64,000 nt of DNA, taken from positions 172,792-236,791 of the forward strand of contig NZ_MWLM01000062.1 of assembly GCF_002198665.1 (NCBI RefSeq), written 5' to 3'. The position numbers and the translations under genes are program-made. Shown here one piece after another: positions 25,328-31,521 of the stretch (the first letter of the stretch is position 1; each line of letters opens with the position of its first letter). A model generated the notes under the pieces. That model was not told the DNA's origin. It saw only the letters and a list, made by a program, of their open reading frames with translations, and made no database searches. Source of the DNA: Novosphingobium sp. B 225 (GTDB lineage Bacteria; Pseudomonadota; Alphaproteobacteria; Sphingomonadales; Sphingomonadaceae).

Positions 25328-25404
<77 letters not shown>

Positions 25405-25427
25405 GCCGGGCGTCGATATGACGCCGG

Positions 25428-25501
25428 GCGGGTATAGCATAGTGGTAATGCTCCAGCCTTCCAAGCTGGCTAGAGGGGTTCGATTCCCCTTACCCGCTCC
25501 A
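25428..25501 (+). tRNA. tRNA-Gly (anticodon TCC)
   Basis: 74-base cloverleaf: acceptor GCGGGTA / TACCCGC, anticodon stem CCAGC / GCTGG with loop CTTCCAA (anticodon TCC, codon GGA), T arm GGTTCGATTCC, and encoded CCA. It follows tRNA-Arg by 23 bases and is probably cotranscribed with it. Confidence 0.97.
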
Positions 25502-27390: not shown

Positions 27391-29397
27391 TCAGCGCAAA
27401 TCCGGCGCGGTGGCTTCACCCTTCAGCAGGGCGATGGCTTCGGCCAGCGGCATGACCTTTTGATGTTCGGCCCCCAGGGTGCGCAGCGCGACGGTGCCTT
27501 CCTCGGCCTCGCGCTTGCCCACCACCAGCAGGTGCGGGACCTTTTGCAGCGAGTGTTCGCGGACCTTGTAGTTGATCTTCTCGTTGCGCAGGTCGCAGTC
27601 GGTGCGGATTCCGGCGGCCTTGAGCTGCTGGGTCACCTCGGTGGCATAGGCGTCCGCATCGGACACGATCGTCGCGACCACCGCCTGCACCGGGGCGAGC
27701 CACACCGGCAACTTGCCGGCGAAATGTTCGATCAGGATGCCGATGAAGCGTTCATAGGAACCGAAGATCGCGCGGTGCAGCATCACCGGGCGGTGCTTTT
27801 CGCCATCCTCGGCGATGTAGCTCGCGTTGAGCCGTTCGGGCAGCACGCGGTCAGACTGGATCGTGCCGACCTGCCAGGTCCGCCCGATCGCATCGGTCAG
27901 GTGCCATTCCAGCTTGGGTGCATAGAAGGCGCCTTCGCCGGGCAGTTCCTCCCAGCCATACTCTGCGGTAGCGAGGCCAGCGCGGACCACGGCGTCGCGC
28001 AGTTCGGTTTCGGCCTGATCCCACATCTCCTCGGTGCCGAAGCGCTTTTCGGGGCGCAGCGCGAGCTTGATCGAATAGGTGAAGCCGAAATCCTTGTAGA
28101 TCCGGTCCGCCAGCGCGCAGAAATCCTGCACTTCGGCCACGATTTGGTCTTCGCGGCAGAAAATGTGGGCGTCGTCCTGCGTAAACTGGCGGACCCGCAT
28201 CAGCCCGTGCAGCGCGCCGTGGGGCTCGTTGCGGTGGCAGCAGCCGTTTTCATAGATCCGCAGCGGCAGGTCGCGGTAGCTCTTGATTCCCTGGCGGAAG
28301 ATCAGCACGTGCGCCGGGCAATTCATCGGCTTGAGCGCCATCCAGTCCGCATCGTTGGAGATGATCGGGCCTTCATCATCGACGTTGGGAACTTCGTCGG
28401 GAATGACGAACATGTTCTCGCGGTACTTGCCCCAGTGGCCAGACTGCTCCCACTGGCGCGCGTCCATCACTTGCGGGGTCTTGACCTCGCGGTAGCCCGC
28501 GCCGTCGATCGCGCGTCGCATATAGGCTTCCAGCTCGCGCCAGATCAGGTAGCCCTTGGGGTGCCAGAACACGCTGCCGTGGGCTTCCTGCTGCAGGTGG
28601 AACAGGTCCATTTCCCCGCCCAGCTTGCGGTGGTCGCGCTTGGCGGCTTCTTCCAGCCGGGTCAGGTGTTCGGCCAGTTGCTTCTTGTTGAGCCAGCCGG
28701 TGCCGTAGATCCGGCTGAGCATGGCGTTGTTCTGGTCCCCGCGCCAGTAAGCGCCGGACACGCGCGTCAGCTTGAAAGCATCGGGCGCAAGCTTGCCGGT
28801 GCTGGGCAGGTGCGGGCCGCGGCACATGTCGAGCCAGTCTTCGCCCGACCAATAGATCGTCAGCGGTTCGCCTTCCGGCAATTCGGCGGCCCATTCGGCC
28901 TTGAAACTTTCGCCCTGCTGCTTCCACCGGCTGATCAGCTGTTCGCGGCTCCATTCCTCGCGGCGCAAGGGCTTGTCGGCCTGGATGATCCGGCGCATTT
29001 CGGCCTCGATCGCAGGCAGGTCTTCCTCAGTAAACGGGCGGTCCTTGCCATCAATTTTTGGGGGCGCGAAATCGTAATAGAAGCCGTCGTCGGTGCTGGG
29101 GCCAAAGGTGATCTGCGTGCCGGGGAACAGCGCCTGCACCGCTTCAGCCAGGACGTGGGCGTAATCGTGGCGGGCAAGATCGAGCGCATCGGCCTCGTCG
29201 CGGCTGGTAACCAGCGCAACTTCGCAGTCCCCATCGAACGGGCGGGTCAGATCGCGCAGTTCACCGTCGATCCGCGCGGCAAGTGCGGCTTTGGCCAGGC
29301 CCGGGCCGATTGCAGCGGCAAGGTCCGCCGGGGTCGATCCGCGCGGCAGTTCGCGGCTGGAACCGTCGGGCAGGCTGATCTTCAACATTTCGGACAT
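27391..29397 (-). CDS. thrS: Threonyl-tRNA synthetase
   Basis: Class II synthetase of 668 residues charging tRNA-Thr. Domain order is TGS (residues 1-65), N2 editing domain with [16 protein letters not shown] near 78, catalytic core and anticodon-binding domain. Zinc ligands appear in [13 protein letters not shown] (Cys), [10 protein letters not shown] and [22 protein letters not shown] (His). ATG at 29397 has only a weak GAGAG. The upstream leader of about 200 bases contains a threonine-rich short open frame and alternative hairpins, see the separate entry. The gene stands alone and is followed by the DUF3800 gene. Confidence 0.97.
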
Positions 29398-29455
29398 GCG
29401 ATACTCTCAACACCGTTTGGGGCGCTTTGGCACATGCCGGGGCGCACCGGAAGGG

Positions 29456-29516
29456 GCGGTGTCTGGTTTCGGCAGGTTCGGGGAGGAGACACCAACCGCC
29501 CGAACCCGGACGGCGG
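29456..29516 (-). promoter_or_regulatory. Mutually exclusive hairpin arms in the thrS leader
   Basis: In RNA order, GGTTCGGG (about 29516-29509) can pair with CCCGAACC (about 29483-29476). GGCGGTTGGTGTCT (about 29504-29488) can pair with AGACACCGCC (about 29466-29456). The arms interleave, so the two helices compete, as in attenuators. No U tract follows the second helix. Confidence 0.45.
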
Positions 29517-29528
29517 CGCGCGTTCGCG

Positions 29529-29600
29529 TCAGGCGATCGCGGTCCGCCCCGGGAAGCCCGGGGTGGTGGTAGTAGTCGTCAAGGCGCGCGGCGTGCTCAT
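29529..29600 (-). CDS. Threonine-rich leader peptide upstream of thrS
   Basis: Short open frame of 23 codons plus TGA, too short for routine gene finding. It starts MSTPRAL, continues with six threonine codons in a row (ACG ACT ACT ACC ACC ACC), and ends PGFPGRTAIA; 8 of 23 residues are Thr. A hairpin CCCCGGG-CTT-CCCGGGG lies directly after the Thr run. This resembles leader peptides of amino-acid attenuators such as ThrL and PheM, and suggests that shortage of charged tRNA-Thr stalls the ribosome here and raises thrS expression. There is no Shine-Dalgarno; a promoter just upstream may give a leaderless message. Confidence 0.6.
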   Translation of the reverse strand: MSTPRALTTTTTTPGFPGRTAIA

Positions 29601-29608
29601 CGCTAGCG

Positions 29609-29637
29609 GGGATAGCAGGCAATGGTGAATAATTCAA
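29609..29637 (-). promoter_or_regulatory. Candidate thrS promoter
   Basis: On the minus strand TTGAAT (29637-29632), a 17-base spacer ending in TGC, and TATCCC (29614-29609) form a -35/extended -10 pair. Transcription would start within a few bases of the leader-peptide ATG at 29600. Confidence 0.4.
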
Positions 29638-29665
29638 ACCCTTGGGTTGGGGCGGAGGTGTTTGG

Positions 29666-29845
29666 ATGGTTCACGCAGAGACGCGGAGGCAGAAAGGGAG
29701 ACGCGGAGGCGGTCGGGATTCCGGCGAAGTCGATTTATCCTTCGTCGGTTCGGTCAAACCGGACGTTCTGACCGTAAAGAGAGCCTGCGGCTCAGCGCCA
29801 CCCCTCCGCGCCTCTTTTCTTCCTCCGCGTCTCTGCGTGAACCAT
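29666..29845. repeat. 180-bp MITE-like element, copy 1
   Basis: Perfect 24-bp terminal inverted repeats (ATGGTTCACGCAGAGACGCG... at 29666-29689; mirror at 29822-29845), with the similarity continuing imperfectly inward to about 50 bp. The interior contains AGAGCCTGCGGC, shared with copy 2 at 40071-40249. No open frame or transposase is inside. It fills the gap between the thrS leader and the phoD stop codon. Confidence 0.85.
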
Positions 29846-29877
29846 TCCGACCTATCCCCCAAACCCAAGGTCCGAGA

Positions 29878-31521
29878 TCAAACCGAATACTTCCGCTGCC
29901 CCGCCAGCACCGTCATCCGCTTCACCCCCGACAGCGCGGTGCTGCGTTGGCGGACAGTGGCCATGAAGCGCCATTCGCTGGTGGCGCTTTTGGGGGTCAG
30001 TTCGACCGCCATGTAGCCGCGCTGGCGCGTGTCGCACCATTTGAGCTGGCGGTTGGCCGCCACGCTTTCGCGCGCCAGTTCATCCGGCTTGATCCAGCGC
30101 AGCGAATCTTCGGCGCCGGGCGAGGTGACCCCCTGCCCGGCCATTTCCACGCCGACACGCTGGCCTTTGCGATCAAGATCAAAGGCCCAGGCATTGTGGC
30201 TGTCACCCGACAACACCACCAGGTTGGCATTGGCCTCAAGCGCGGATTTGAGCAGCCGGTCGCGCGCGGCGGGATAGCCATCCCACATGTCCATGTTGAG
30301 CGGCACGCCATTGAGCCCCGCCGCGACCGAGGCCTGAATGCGGGTCTTGAGCCATTCGGGCGATCGGGCATCCATGCCGTCGAGCACCTTGGGCGTCATC
30401 TTGAGTTCGCCCATGATCACTTGCTGGCCCAGCACCTGCCAGGGCTTGCGGGCCCGGGTCGAAGCCTTGAGCGCACCGGCCAGCCAGGCTTCCTGCTGAG
30501 CGCCCAGCAATGTCCGCCTTGGATCGTGCAGCGGGCCATCGCGGAACCGGGTCAAGGCTGCCGCCACCGCATCGGGCGCTGCGCCTTTGTAGACTTCCAG
30601 GAAGTCGAGCGCTTCCACCCGCCCCACGTGGCGGCTTTCCAGCTTGAACAGCGTGGCCAGGTCGCCAATCTCATAACTGGCCCAGTAATCATCGGAAACC
30701 GGCAGCCATTCGCGGTAAGCCTGTTCCGAAGCCGCCTTGCGTGCGGGCCAATCGCCCTCATCCGGCTGGTGGTTTTCGGCGCCGCCGGCCCAGGTGTCAT
30801 TGGCCACTTCGTGATCATCCCACATCGGCACCATCGGCCACAGCTGGTGCAGCCGCTGCAGGTCGGGATCGAGCCGGTAGGTGGCAAGGCGTTCACGGTA
30901 GCCGGCCAGCGTCGTCGCTTCATTCTCCGGCATGAAGCGGCCTTCCAGAGTCTGCTTCGCGCTGGGATATTCGCCGCGTTTGTATTCGTAGAAATAGTCG
31001 CCCAGGTGCATCGTCAGGTCGAAATCACCGGCCTCGCAGGCGTGGGCATAGGCATTGAACCAGCCGAACCCCAGGTTGGAGCACGAAAACACCGCGATCC
31101 GGAATTTCCCGACTTTGCCCACCGGCAGCGTGCGGGTGCGCCCGGTGATCGACTTTTCGCCGTTCGGGGCGATGAAGCGATAGAAATACCATTTGCCCGG
31201 CTCCAGGCCTTTCGCCCAGGCTTTGGCGCAGCTGTCATTGGCCGGGCTGGCGGTGCAGTCTCCACTGGCGGTGACCCGCGCGAAATCCTCACTGTCCGAT
31301 AGTTCCCACTTAAGCGCGGTATCAGAGCCGCTGGCATAGCGCGTCCACAGCAAGACCCGGTCAGGCCCCGGCTCCCCGCTTGCCACCCCATGGCTGAATC
31401 CACCGCCAACAGCCGCGCGCAGCGGCGCGGAAAATCCCATCAGCCCCACGGCCCCCAGCTTGAACAGCGATCGGCGGTCAGTTGCGAGCAGCGGCGCTGG
31501 GGCAGGCGGGGGCAGGCTCAT
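29878..31521 (-). CDS. phoD: Tat-exported alkaline phosphatase D family protein
   Basis: Phosphodiesterase/phosphatase of 547 residues, calcium- and iron-dependent in the PhoD family, acting in the periplasm. The twin-arginine signal is DRRSLFKLGAVGLMGFSAPLRA-like (split at the RR-SLFK core near residue 15). Family segments include FSHGVASGEPGPDRVLLWTRY near 42, FSCSNLGFGWFNAY near 150, HLGDYFYEYKRGEYP near 171, WDDHEVANDTW near 239, and LSGDSHNAWAFDL near 449. ATG at 31521 has a GGGAG Shine-Dalgarno. It is monocistronic; no Pho box was recognised upstream. Confidence 0.9.
   Translation of the reverse strand: MSLPPPAPAPLLATDRRSLFKLGAVGLMGFSAPLRAAVGGGFSHGVASGEPGPDRVLLWTRYASGSDTALKWELSDSEDFARVTASGDCTASPANDSCAKAWAKGLEPGKWYFYRFIAPNGEKSITGRTRTLPVGKVGKFRIAVFSCSNLGFGWFNAYAHACEAGDFDLTMHLGDYFYEYKRGEYPSAKQTLEGRFMPENEATTLAGYRERLATYRLDPDLQRLHQLWPMVPMWDDHEVANDTWAGGAENHQPDEGDWPARKAASEQAYREWLPVSDDYWASYEIGDLATLFKLESRHVGRVEALDFLEVYKGAAPDAVAAALTRFRDGPLHDPRRTLLGAQQEAWLAGALKASTRARKPWQVLGQQVIMGELKMTPKVLDGMDARSPEWLKTRIQASVAAGLNGVPLNMDMWDGYPAARDRLLKSALEANANLVVLSGDSHNAWAFDLDRKGQRVGVEMAGQGVTSPGAEDSLRWIKPDELARESVAANRQLKWCDTRQRGYMAVELTPKSATSEWRFMATVRQRSTALSGVKRMTVLAGQRKYSV

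Follow-up and report, generated by a model that had tools for sequence, protein, structure and literature searches.

In enterobacteria, the his operon attenuator, which precedes a biosynthetic operon, uses His codons and a six-arm relay that leads to a distal hairpin, a terminator with a U-tract, and the leader of the thr operon (Rfam family Thr_leader) has Thr and Ile codons before thrABC. The E. coli thrS gene carries a translational operator, whose tRNA-like domains are bound by the synthetase and which has no leader peptide. In Firmicutes, T-box leaders of thrS sense uncharged tRNA-Thr, the tRNA being bound directly by the RNA. Vitreschak et al. 2004 is reportedly the main survey of proteobacterial attenuators.

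We analysed the region upstream of thrS, the gene for threonyl-tRNA synthetase (ThrRS), in a stretch of 64,000 nucleotides from Novosphingobium sp. B 225 (the window). The leader found there resembles the his attenuator in that a six-arm relay would carry ribosome position to a distal hairpin, but differs from it in having Thr codons, a synthetase gene downstream and no U-tract. With the thr operon leader it shares a Thr-rich peptide, and it does not reach the Rfam threshold of Thr_leader. The E. coli operator controls the same gene, but without a leader peptide, and the T-box likewise lies upstream of thrS, but the window leader has no Rfam T-box match.

Among the literature matches listed, the closest described relative is the uORFC-8-2 motif upstream of cysS in Rhodobacterales. 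In the available part of its description, this motif has a short frame with two tandem Cys codons, stems and a 3' U-run, and is read as ribosome-mediated attenuation (PMC8632094). As far as that part goes, it is like the thrS leader in belonging to an alphaproteobacterial synthetase gene and in combining a short frame of cognate codons with stems; in contrast, the thrS leader has a Thr run of up to nine codons, a longer helix relay and no U-tract, precedes thrS, and occurs in another order. The trpL leader of trpE(G) in S. meliloti is also alphaproteobacterial, with a possibly leaderless message, but according to the available part of that paper it has Trp codons and controls a biosynthetic gene and no synthetase (PMC7298713). 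In the open-licence full-text literature, no paper among the matches listed concerned a thrS attenuator by its title or the start of its abstract; in the available part of Naville and Gautheret 2010 the E. coli ThrRS appears once, as a self-regulating protein (PMC2965389).

Results

The thrS locus

In the window, thrS is flanked by a gene for a PhoD-like phosphatase upstream and one for a DUF3800 protein downstream (Table 1). The closest full-length named relative of its product is ThrS of Novosphingobium percolationis (87% over the best segment, in a search that may omit the window's own and very near genomes), and a partial ThrS from a metagenome-assembled genome (L061) is 91% identical. The only Rfam family above its own threshold anywhere in the window was tRNA, and between 29350 and 29700 a search at E <= 5 gave a single weak match, to radC RNA (16.7 bits against a threshold of 40). 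Adjacent genes for tRNA-Arg (CCG) and tRNA-Gly (TCC) lie at 25328-25501 on the plus strand. Between the PhoD-like gene and the promoter P1, at 29651-29860, there is a dispersed palindromic repeat with 45-nt arms that are 82% complementary and 120 nt apart; its 19-nt core has 58 matches in the genome at two mismatches or fewer, against none for the reversed pattern, and the cores often form inverted pairs about 150 nt apart.

Table 1. Features upstream of and including thrS, in window coordinates. Helices are named after the arms that pair.
Feature	Positions	Strand	Elements	Conservation or remark
P1, promoter	29609..29637	-	-35 TTGAAT (29637-29632), 17-nt spacer, -10 TATCCC (29614-29609)	start predicted at or next to the AUG of the leader frame
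Leader peptide frame	29529..29600	-	23 codons, MSTPRALTTTTTTPGFPGRTAIA	frame conserved, Thr identity kept, third bases variable
Six-Thr run, proposed ribosome stall site	29562..29579	-	codons 8-13, ACG ACT ACT ACC ACC ACC	
Helix 1:2	29547..29563	-	CCCCGGG / CCCGGGG, inside the frame, directly after the Thr codons	nearly invariant
Helix 2:3	29506..29552	-	CCGGGGCGG (29552-29544) and CCGCCGTCCGG (29516-29506), 2-nt bulge	
Helix 3:4	29496..29513	-	CCGTCCG / CGGGCGG	co-variation, arm swaps
Helix 4:5, proposed antiterminator	29474..29507	-	GGGTTCGGG (29507-29499) and CCCGAACCT (29482-29474)	
Helix HT, proposed OFF hairpin	29457..29494	-	TGGTGTCT (29494-29487) and AGACACCG (29464-29457), without U-tract	
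P2, proposed thrS-proximal promoter	29424..29453	-	-35 region CTTCCGG (29453-29447), -10 region TGTGCCAAAGC (29434-29424)	
thrS, threonyl-tRNA synthetase	27391..29397	-	668 aa; TGS, SAD, class II core and anticodon-binding domains	

Collection of leaders

Relatives of the leader were drawn from named thrS loci and from a sample of genomes of the order. Among 80 named loci, 61 are sphingomonad or sphingomonad-like by identity (L002-L061 and L080), and 60 of these come with some upstream DNA (L061 has none, L003 only 101 nt). A frame with at least five Thr in eight codons and a stop 116 to 161 nt before thrS was present in 17 of the 60, and none of 19 thrS loci from other Alphaproteobacteria reaches five Thr in eight codons. 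L008 scored six Thr in eight codons in the scan but lacks the leader anatomy, and was rejected.

The order sample comprised 197 genomes, 195 with a ThrS match at the cut-off used and 127 in the window's family; 140 thrS upstreams were fetched, 126 from this family and 14 from the other 70 genomes. Together with the window and the 17 positive named loci this made 158 upstreams, which were filtered for at least four Thr in eight codons and a stop 100 to 175 nt before thrS. The 72 that passed included two duplicates, and of the remaining 70, G157 and G182 were removed as spurious and G158 as having no start codon near the run, leaving 67 leaders. The start codon was set as the farthest ATG within nine codons of the Thr cluster, the promoter playing no part in the choice. 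The alignment A2 contains 60 of the 67 leaders; the divergent L040, L045, L055, L111, L113, L114 and L196 were left out of it.

A conserved run of threonine codons

The preliminary description of this DNA had claimed a 23-codon frame with six consecutive Thr codons and eight in total, ending about 130 bases before thrS. The letters confirm it, the stop codon standing 131 nt ahead of the thrS ATG at 29397. As in an attenuator, then, the leader is a short frame rich in the codons cognate to the downstream gene. The peptide has 23 residues in 43 of the 67 leaders and 22 to 24 residues in 62 of them, and the longest Thr run extends to nine codons.

In the 43 leaders with 23 codons, codons 8-13 encode Thr in 36 to 43 sequences and codons 9-13 in 40 to 43. 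The entropy of Thr codons 7-13 in these leaders is 0 to 0.89 bit at the first two bases (0 to 0.43 bit in codons 9-13) and 0.63 to 1.89 bit at the third. As the third base varies and the first two hardly do, selection acts on threonine and not on the bases. Most residues outside the run vary, with the exception of a conserved RGR, which probably reflects an RNA constraint because it is encoded by arm 2. If the frame encoded a small Thr-rich protein acting in trans, with the structures incidental, conservation of frame and length (exactly 23 residues in 43 of 67) would be expected, but the variability outside the run, the coincidence of RGR with arm 2, the tight linkage to thrS and the co-variation of the downstream helices all speak against such a protein, which we regard as very improbable.

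Leaders and thrS genes also differ in codon usage. In 15 leaders (the window and 14 named loci, out of the 67), ACT makes up 18 of 118 Thr codons versus 14 of 372 in the 14 thrS genes that go with these named loci, and is thus about four times commoner in the leaders; over all four Thr codons the difference has a chi-square p of 2e-6. ACT and ACC would share one tRNA-Thr, with anticodon GGU. In L163 (the same locus as G194), the Thr run and the helices are present, the usual stop is lost, and the frame extends to the thrS start region.

A promoter at a fixed distance from the leader AUG

A sigma-70 consensus scan returned no promoter in 29000-30500; the evidence for P1 is comparative. The -35 and -10 elements that had been noticed just upstream of the frame are present, and in relatives they occupy a conserved position with respect to the AUG. 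Across the 67 leaders, the -10 element falls at -13 to -8 from the AUG (T at -13 in 67%, A at -12 in 63%) and the -35 element at about -36 to -32 (T, G and A at -35 to -33 in 70, 60 and 54%), and the base before the AUG, at -1, is C in 79%. The -10 element of the window lies one base further upstream. Since the distance from P1 to the AUG is fixed, transcription likely starts at or beside the AUG, and the leader message would probably be leaderless, as had been suggested. In the available part of its description, S. meliloti trpL shows a like arrangement, with the RNA starting at the ATG of the leader frame (PMC7298713).

Mutually exclusive helices and their co-variation

The leader helices are a six-arm relay (Table 1). 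The hairpin that had been described right after the Thr codons, with CTT between its arms, is helix 1:2, and the interleaved, exclusive helices proposed downstream of it are found twice over, in 3:4 against 4:5 and in 4:5 against HT. When the window leader is folded by itself, it does no better than shuffles (z -0.69 and -0.71), which is what chance low-complexity GC-rich sequence would give. The case is built on comparison, namely on Thr identity, on co-variation, and on the recovery of divergent leaders that had been left out.

Against shuffle and permutation controls, whose statistics ignore relatedness, helix 4:5 on A2 had 91.4% of its cells paired (85.2% in shuffles) and 28 doubly changed cells (8.3 in shuffles; none of 500 as high). 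Six of its pairs carried a double change versus 4.2 expected, a count reached by 70 of the 500 shuffles, and when the helix was slid by one column, 23 doubly changed cells remained and only 64.4% of cells were paired. The six outer pairs of 3:4 were paired in 98.1% of cells on A2, with changes on both sides in three of the six. For the OFF structure as a whole (1:2, 3:4 and HT), the paired cells, the doubly changed cells and the score all lay above every shuffle; its pairs with double changes (7 versus 6.4) were equalled or exceeded in 227 of 500 shuffles, and its further pair types in 58 of 500.

On A2 columns HT was only 64.6% paired, because MAFFT leaves its 3' arm unaligned, and hence we swapped arms between genomes. 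Arms from the same genome were compared with arms from other genomes, and for 4:5, 3:4 and HT alike none of 1000 permutations did as well; with the HT arms taken by position, the within-genome score was 17.1 against a permutation maximum of 14.8. Helices 2:3 and 1:2 were matched by 30 and 8 of 1000 permutations, respectively. Both are nearly invariant, and co-variation is therefore little informative for them; 2:3 was paired in 93.5% of A2 cells versus 92.7% in shuffles, and had five cells changed on both sides versus 0.9, slid controls giving up to six. A compensating change can be seen by eye in G064, which has GGTATCGGG with CCCGATATC where many others have GGTTTCGGG with CCCGAAATC, and G037 has a further paired variant, GGAATGGG with CCCGTTCC.

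The check laid out beforehand, an alignment of Sphingomonadales leaders for the Thr run and for compensating changes in the helices, thus came out in favour of both wherever the helices vary enough to tell (3:4, 4:5 and HT). As putative links between the leader frame and the distal hairpin, the comparison argues strongly for 3:4, 4:5 and HT, and weakly for 1:2 and 2:3.

A covariance model, R1, was built from the Thr run, helices 1:2 and 3:4, and arm 5. Run on 74 loci, it recovered the eight held-out leaders (the seven divergent ones and L163) at E 4e-13 to 1e-3 and missed G158 (E 0.63); loci without a leader gave no match below E 0.1. The window's own genome has one R1 match at E <= 1. Conservation, the codon-position pattern, co-variation and this recovery of held-out leaders refute an origin by chance, the probability of which we take to be close to nil.

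Folding as a function of ribosome position

A ribosome was placed at each codon in turn, covering 12 nt from the first base of the A-site codon, and the RNA downstream of it was folded at equilibrium. With the A site at codons 10-13, the mean expected pairs were 9.1 for 2:3, 2.7 for 4:5 and 3.1 for HT; at codons 21-24 they were 0, 0.5 and 4.7. Helix 4:5 was higher at codons 10-13 than at 21-24 in 50 of 60 leaders (p 9.8e-8; 22 of 60 with the downstream part shuffled), and for HT codons 21-24 gave the higher value in 47 of 60 (p 1.3e-5), a contrast that is partly present in the shuffled control too (40 of 60, p 0.03), both codon sets having been picked after the full scan. In that scan, no more than 33% of sequences had three or more expected pairs in 4:5, and the share for HT was 70-73% at codons 6-8, 40-50% at codons 10-14 and 43-50% at codons 18-20. 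The high share at codons 6-8 and the second dip at codons 18-20 are at odds with the attenuator model. The curve for the window's own leader was noisy. The predicted switch thus runs in the direction of an attenuator, but is partial at equilibrium.

The distal hairpin and a possible second promoter

The preliminary description had seen no U tract, and indeed there is none after HT, nor does a consensus scan place a terminator at the leader. Across relatives, a stem near CTT or TTT was found in 64 of the 67 leaders, and 45 of these 64 have at most three T in the next 10 nt, the automatic search having chosen another stem in a few rows (L029, L033 and L040, for example). As the distal hairpin is not joined to a U-tract across the leaders, we do not class the element as a classical intrinsic-terminator attenuator. 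A degenerate U-tract was considered as a reading of the CTCTT stretch that follows HT, and was rejected, since some leaderless genomes keep the stretch together with a -10-like element at a similar distance.

The C/T-rich stretch after HT may instead belong to P2, and looks like the -35 element of this candidate second promoter, which begins 3 nt after HT. A CTTCCGG-like stretch followed 15 to 19 nt on by a TGTGCCATGG-like element is kept in some leaderless relatives. In a set of 117 upstreams classed as having no leader, 14 exceed the 99th percentile of shuffle scores, against an expectation of about one, with the qualification that three of the 117 (G102, G158 and G194) do have a leader, only G194 being among the 14, and that some of the 117 are one sequence under two names, such as L008 and G159, both among the 14. 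P2 is put forward as a proposal only, because the 67 positives show five different spacers (15 to 19 nt) and the element falls below the threshold in the other 103 of the 117. By eye, a deletion in G121 appears to have taken out P1 and the leader as far as the final bases of HT, with the P2 element intact. At the P2 position, from about -60 to -20 of thrS, inspection by eye suggests in many genomes a possible hairpin whose loop contains TGTGCCATGG and in some of them resembles a Thr anticodon loop (UUGUG); a hairpin CACCG-CUCUUC-CGGUG was also seen by eye.

For want of a U tract, the output had been suggested to depend on Rho or on translation. A translational output, in which folding of the leader would open or block the thrS start region, would suit G102, where by eye an HT-like stem precedes the start of an inserted frame by about 10 nt, beside a probable ribosome-binding site. 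However, the predicted accessibility of thrS from -20 to +6 is equal for a stalled ribosome and one at the stop codon (0.473 versus 0.470; p 0.12, with 41 of 67 leaders higher in the stalled state), and transcripts from P2 would have no leader. The translational part of the suggestion thus finds no support in accessibility, and we regard it as improbable. The Rho part, in which RNA is bared after the leader stop and the choice between HT and 4:5 alters Rho access or polymerase pausing, agrees with the missing U-tract and with the Sphingomonas-type leaders G037 and L040, which by eye keep the anatomy without a T-rich tail. The preservation of HT through compensating changes, however, goes beyond what a bare Rho site would need, and Rho dependence appears somewhat unlikely, though much less so than translation. 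Given that ribosome position makes no difference to the predicted accessibility of the thrS start, the output is most likely control of transcription at HT, whether intrinsic or assisted by Rho.

Distribution of the leader

Over the 197 genomes of the order, R1 gave 56 matches, 53 of them directly upstream of thrS and on the same strand. Those in G104 and a second one in G179 (E 0.004 and 0.008) are not near thrS and were put down to chance. The leader occurs in 55 of the 127 genomes sampled from the window's family (54 of the 126 fetched, and the window's own): 53 are the matches directly upstream of thrS, own genome included, one is in G102, about 600 nt upstream, and one, in G158, was recognized by eye. 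In the other 72, among them 5 of the 11 fetched genomes of the window's genus, no leader is among the findings. Presence is patchy by genus, from 6 of 11 fetched in the window's own, 12 of 13 in g3 and 15 of 17 in g7 to 0 of 9 in g6 and 0 of 15 in g13. Outside the family, the RNA model found no leader in the 70 remaining genomes of the order, under stricter filters that lose weak matches such as G158.

Of 289 genomes drawn from across the class, 6 matched R1, three in the window's family and three weakly elsewhere (E 0.003-0.006); the long frames listed around these last three show no resemblance to thrS over their first 60 residues. Filtering was stricter in the class and order searches, which, among the matches listed, scored no more than 13 and 20 candidates per genome, respectively. 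In G102 (L228), the leader stands before an inserted frame of 168 codons (MRYYIDTEFNG...) and not directly before thrS; the frame has no Pfam match at E <= 0.001, and the HT-like stem abuts its start.

Discussion

The comparative data support the reading first made from this one sequence, that the leader governs thrS by Thr-sensing attenuation. We consider it very probable that the Thr codons, as read by the ribosome, serve as a sensor that acts on thrS through the helices. This degree of confidence covers the sensor only; the weights given above to Rho and to translation are shares of it, and concern the last step alone.

In the mechanism that we propose, RNA from P1 would begin at the leader AUG or beside it, as the promoter spacing suggests, and be translated leaderless. 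When charged tRNA-Thr is plentiful, the ribosome would reach the stop codon and mask arm 2, so that 3:4 could pair and arm 5 stay free; the free arm 5 would let the hairpin HT form from 5a and 6, and most transcription from P1 would end ahead of thrS. Under a shortage of charged tRNA-Thr, the ribosome would stall on the Thr codons and mask arm 1, and arm 2 would pair with arm 3. Formation of 2:3 would release arm 4 for arm 5, HT would be blocked, and thrS would be read through. P2, located just after HT, may provide a basal level of thrS that bypasses the leader.

Taken together, these features would make a leaderless Thr-codon attenuator whose OFF hairpin lacks a U-tract and abuts the -35 element of a second promoter, so that one stretch would both end regulated and start basal transcription. 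We offer this complete layout tentatively, and rate it as rather more doubtful than not. Among the literature matches listed, there is no description of such a layout.

If the sensor reading is true, the leader would match ThrRS to demand in cis in a large alphaproteobacterial family, by a route distinct from both the translational operator of E. coli and the T-box of Firmicutes. A conserved hairpin without a U-tract raises the question of how attenuators end transcription in GC-rich bacteria. The patchy presence of the leader within one family, together with at least one apparent deletion that leaves P2 in place, would make the gain and loss of attenuation directly testable.
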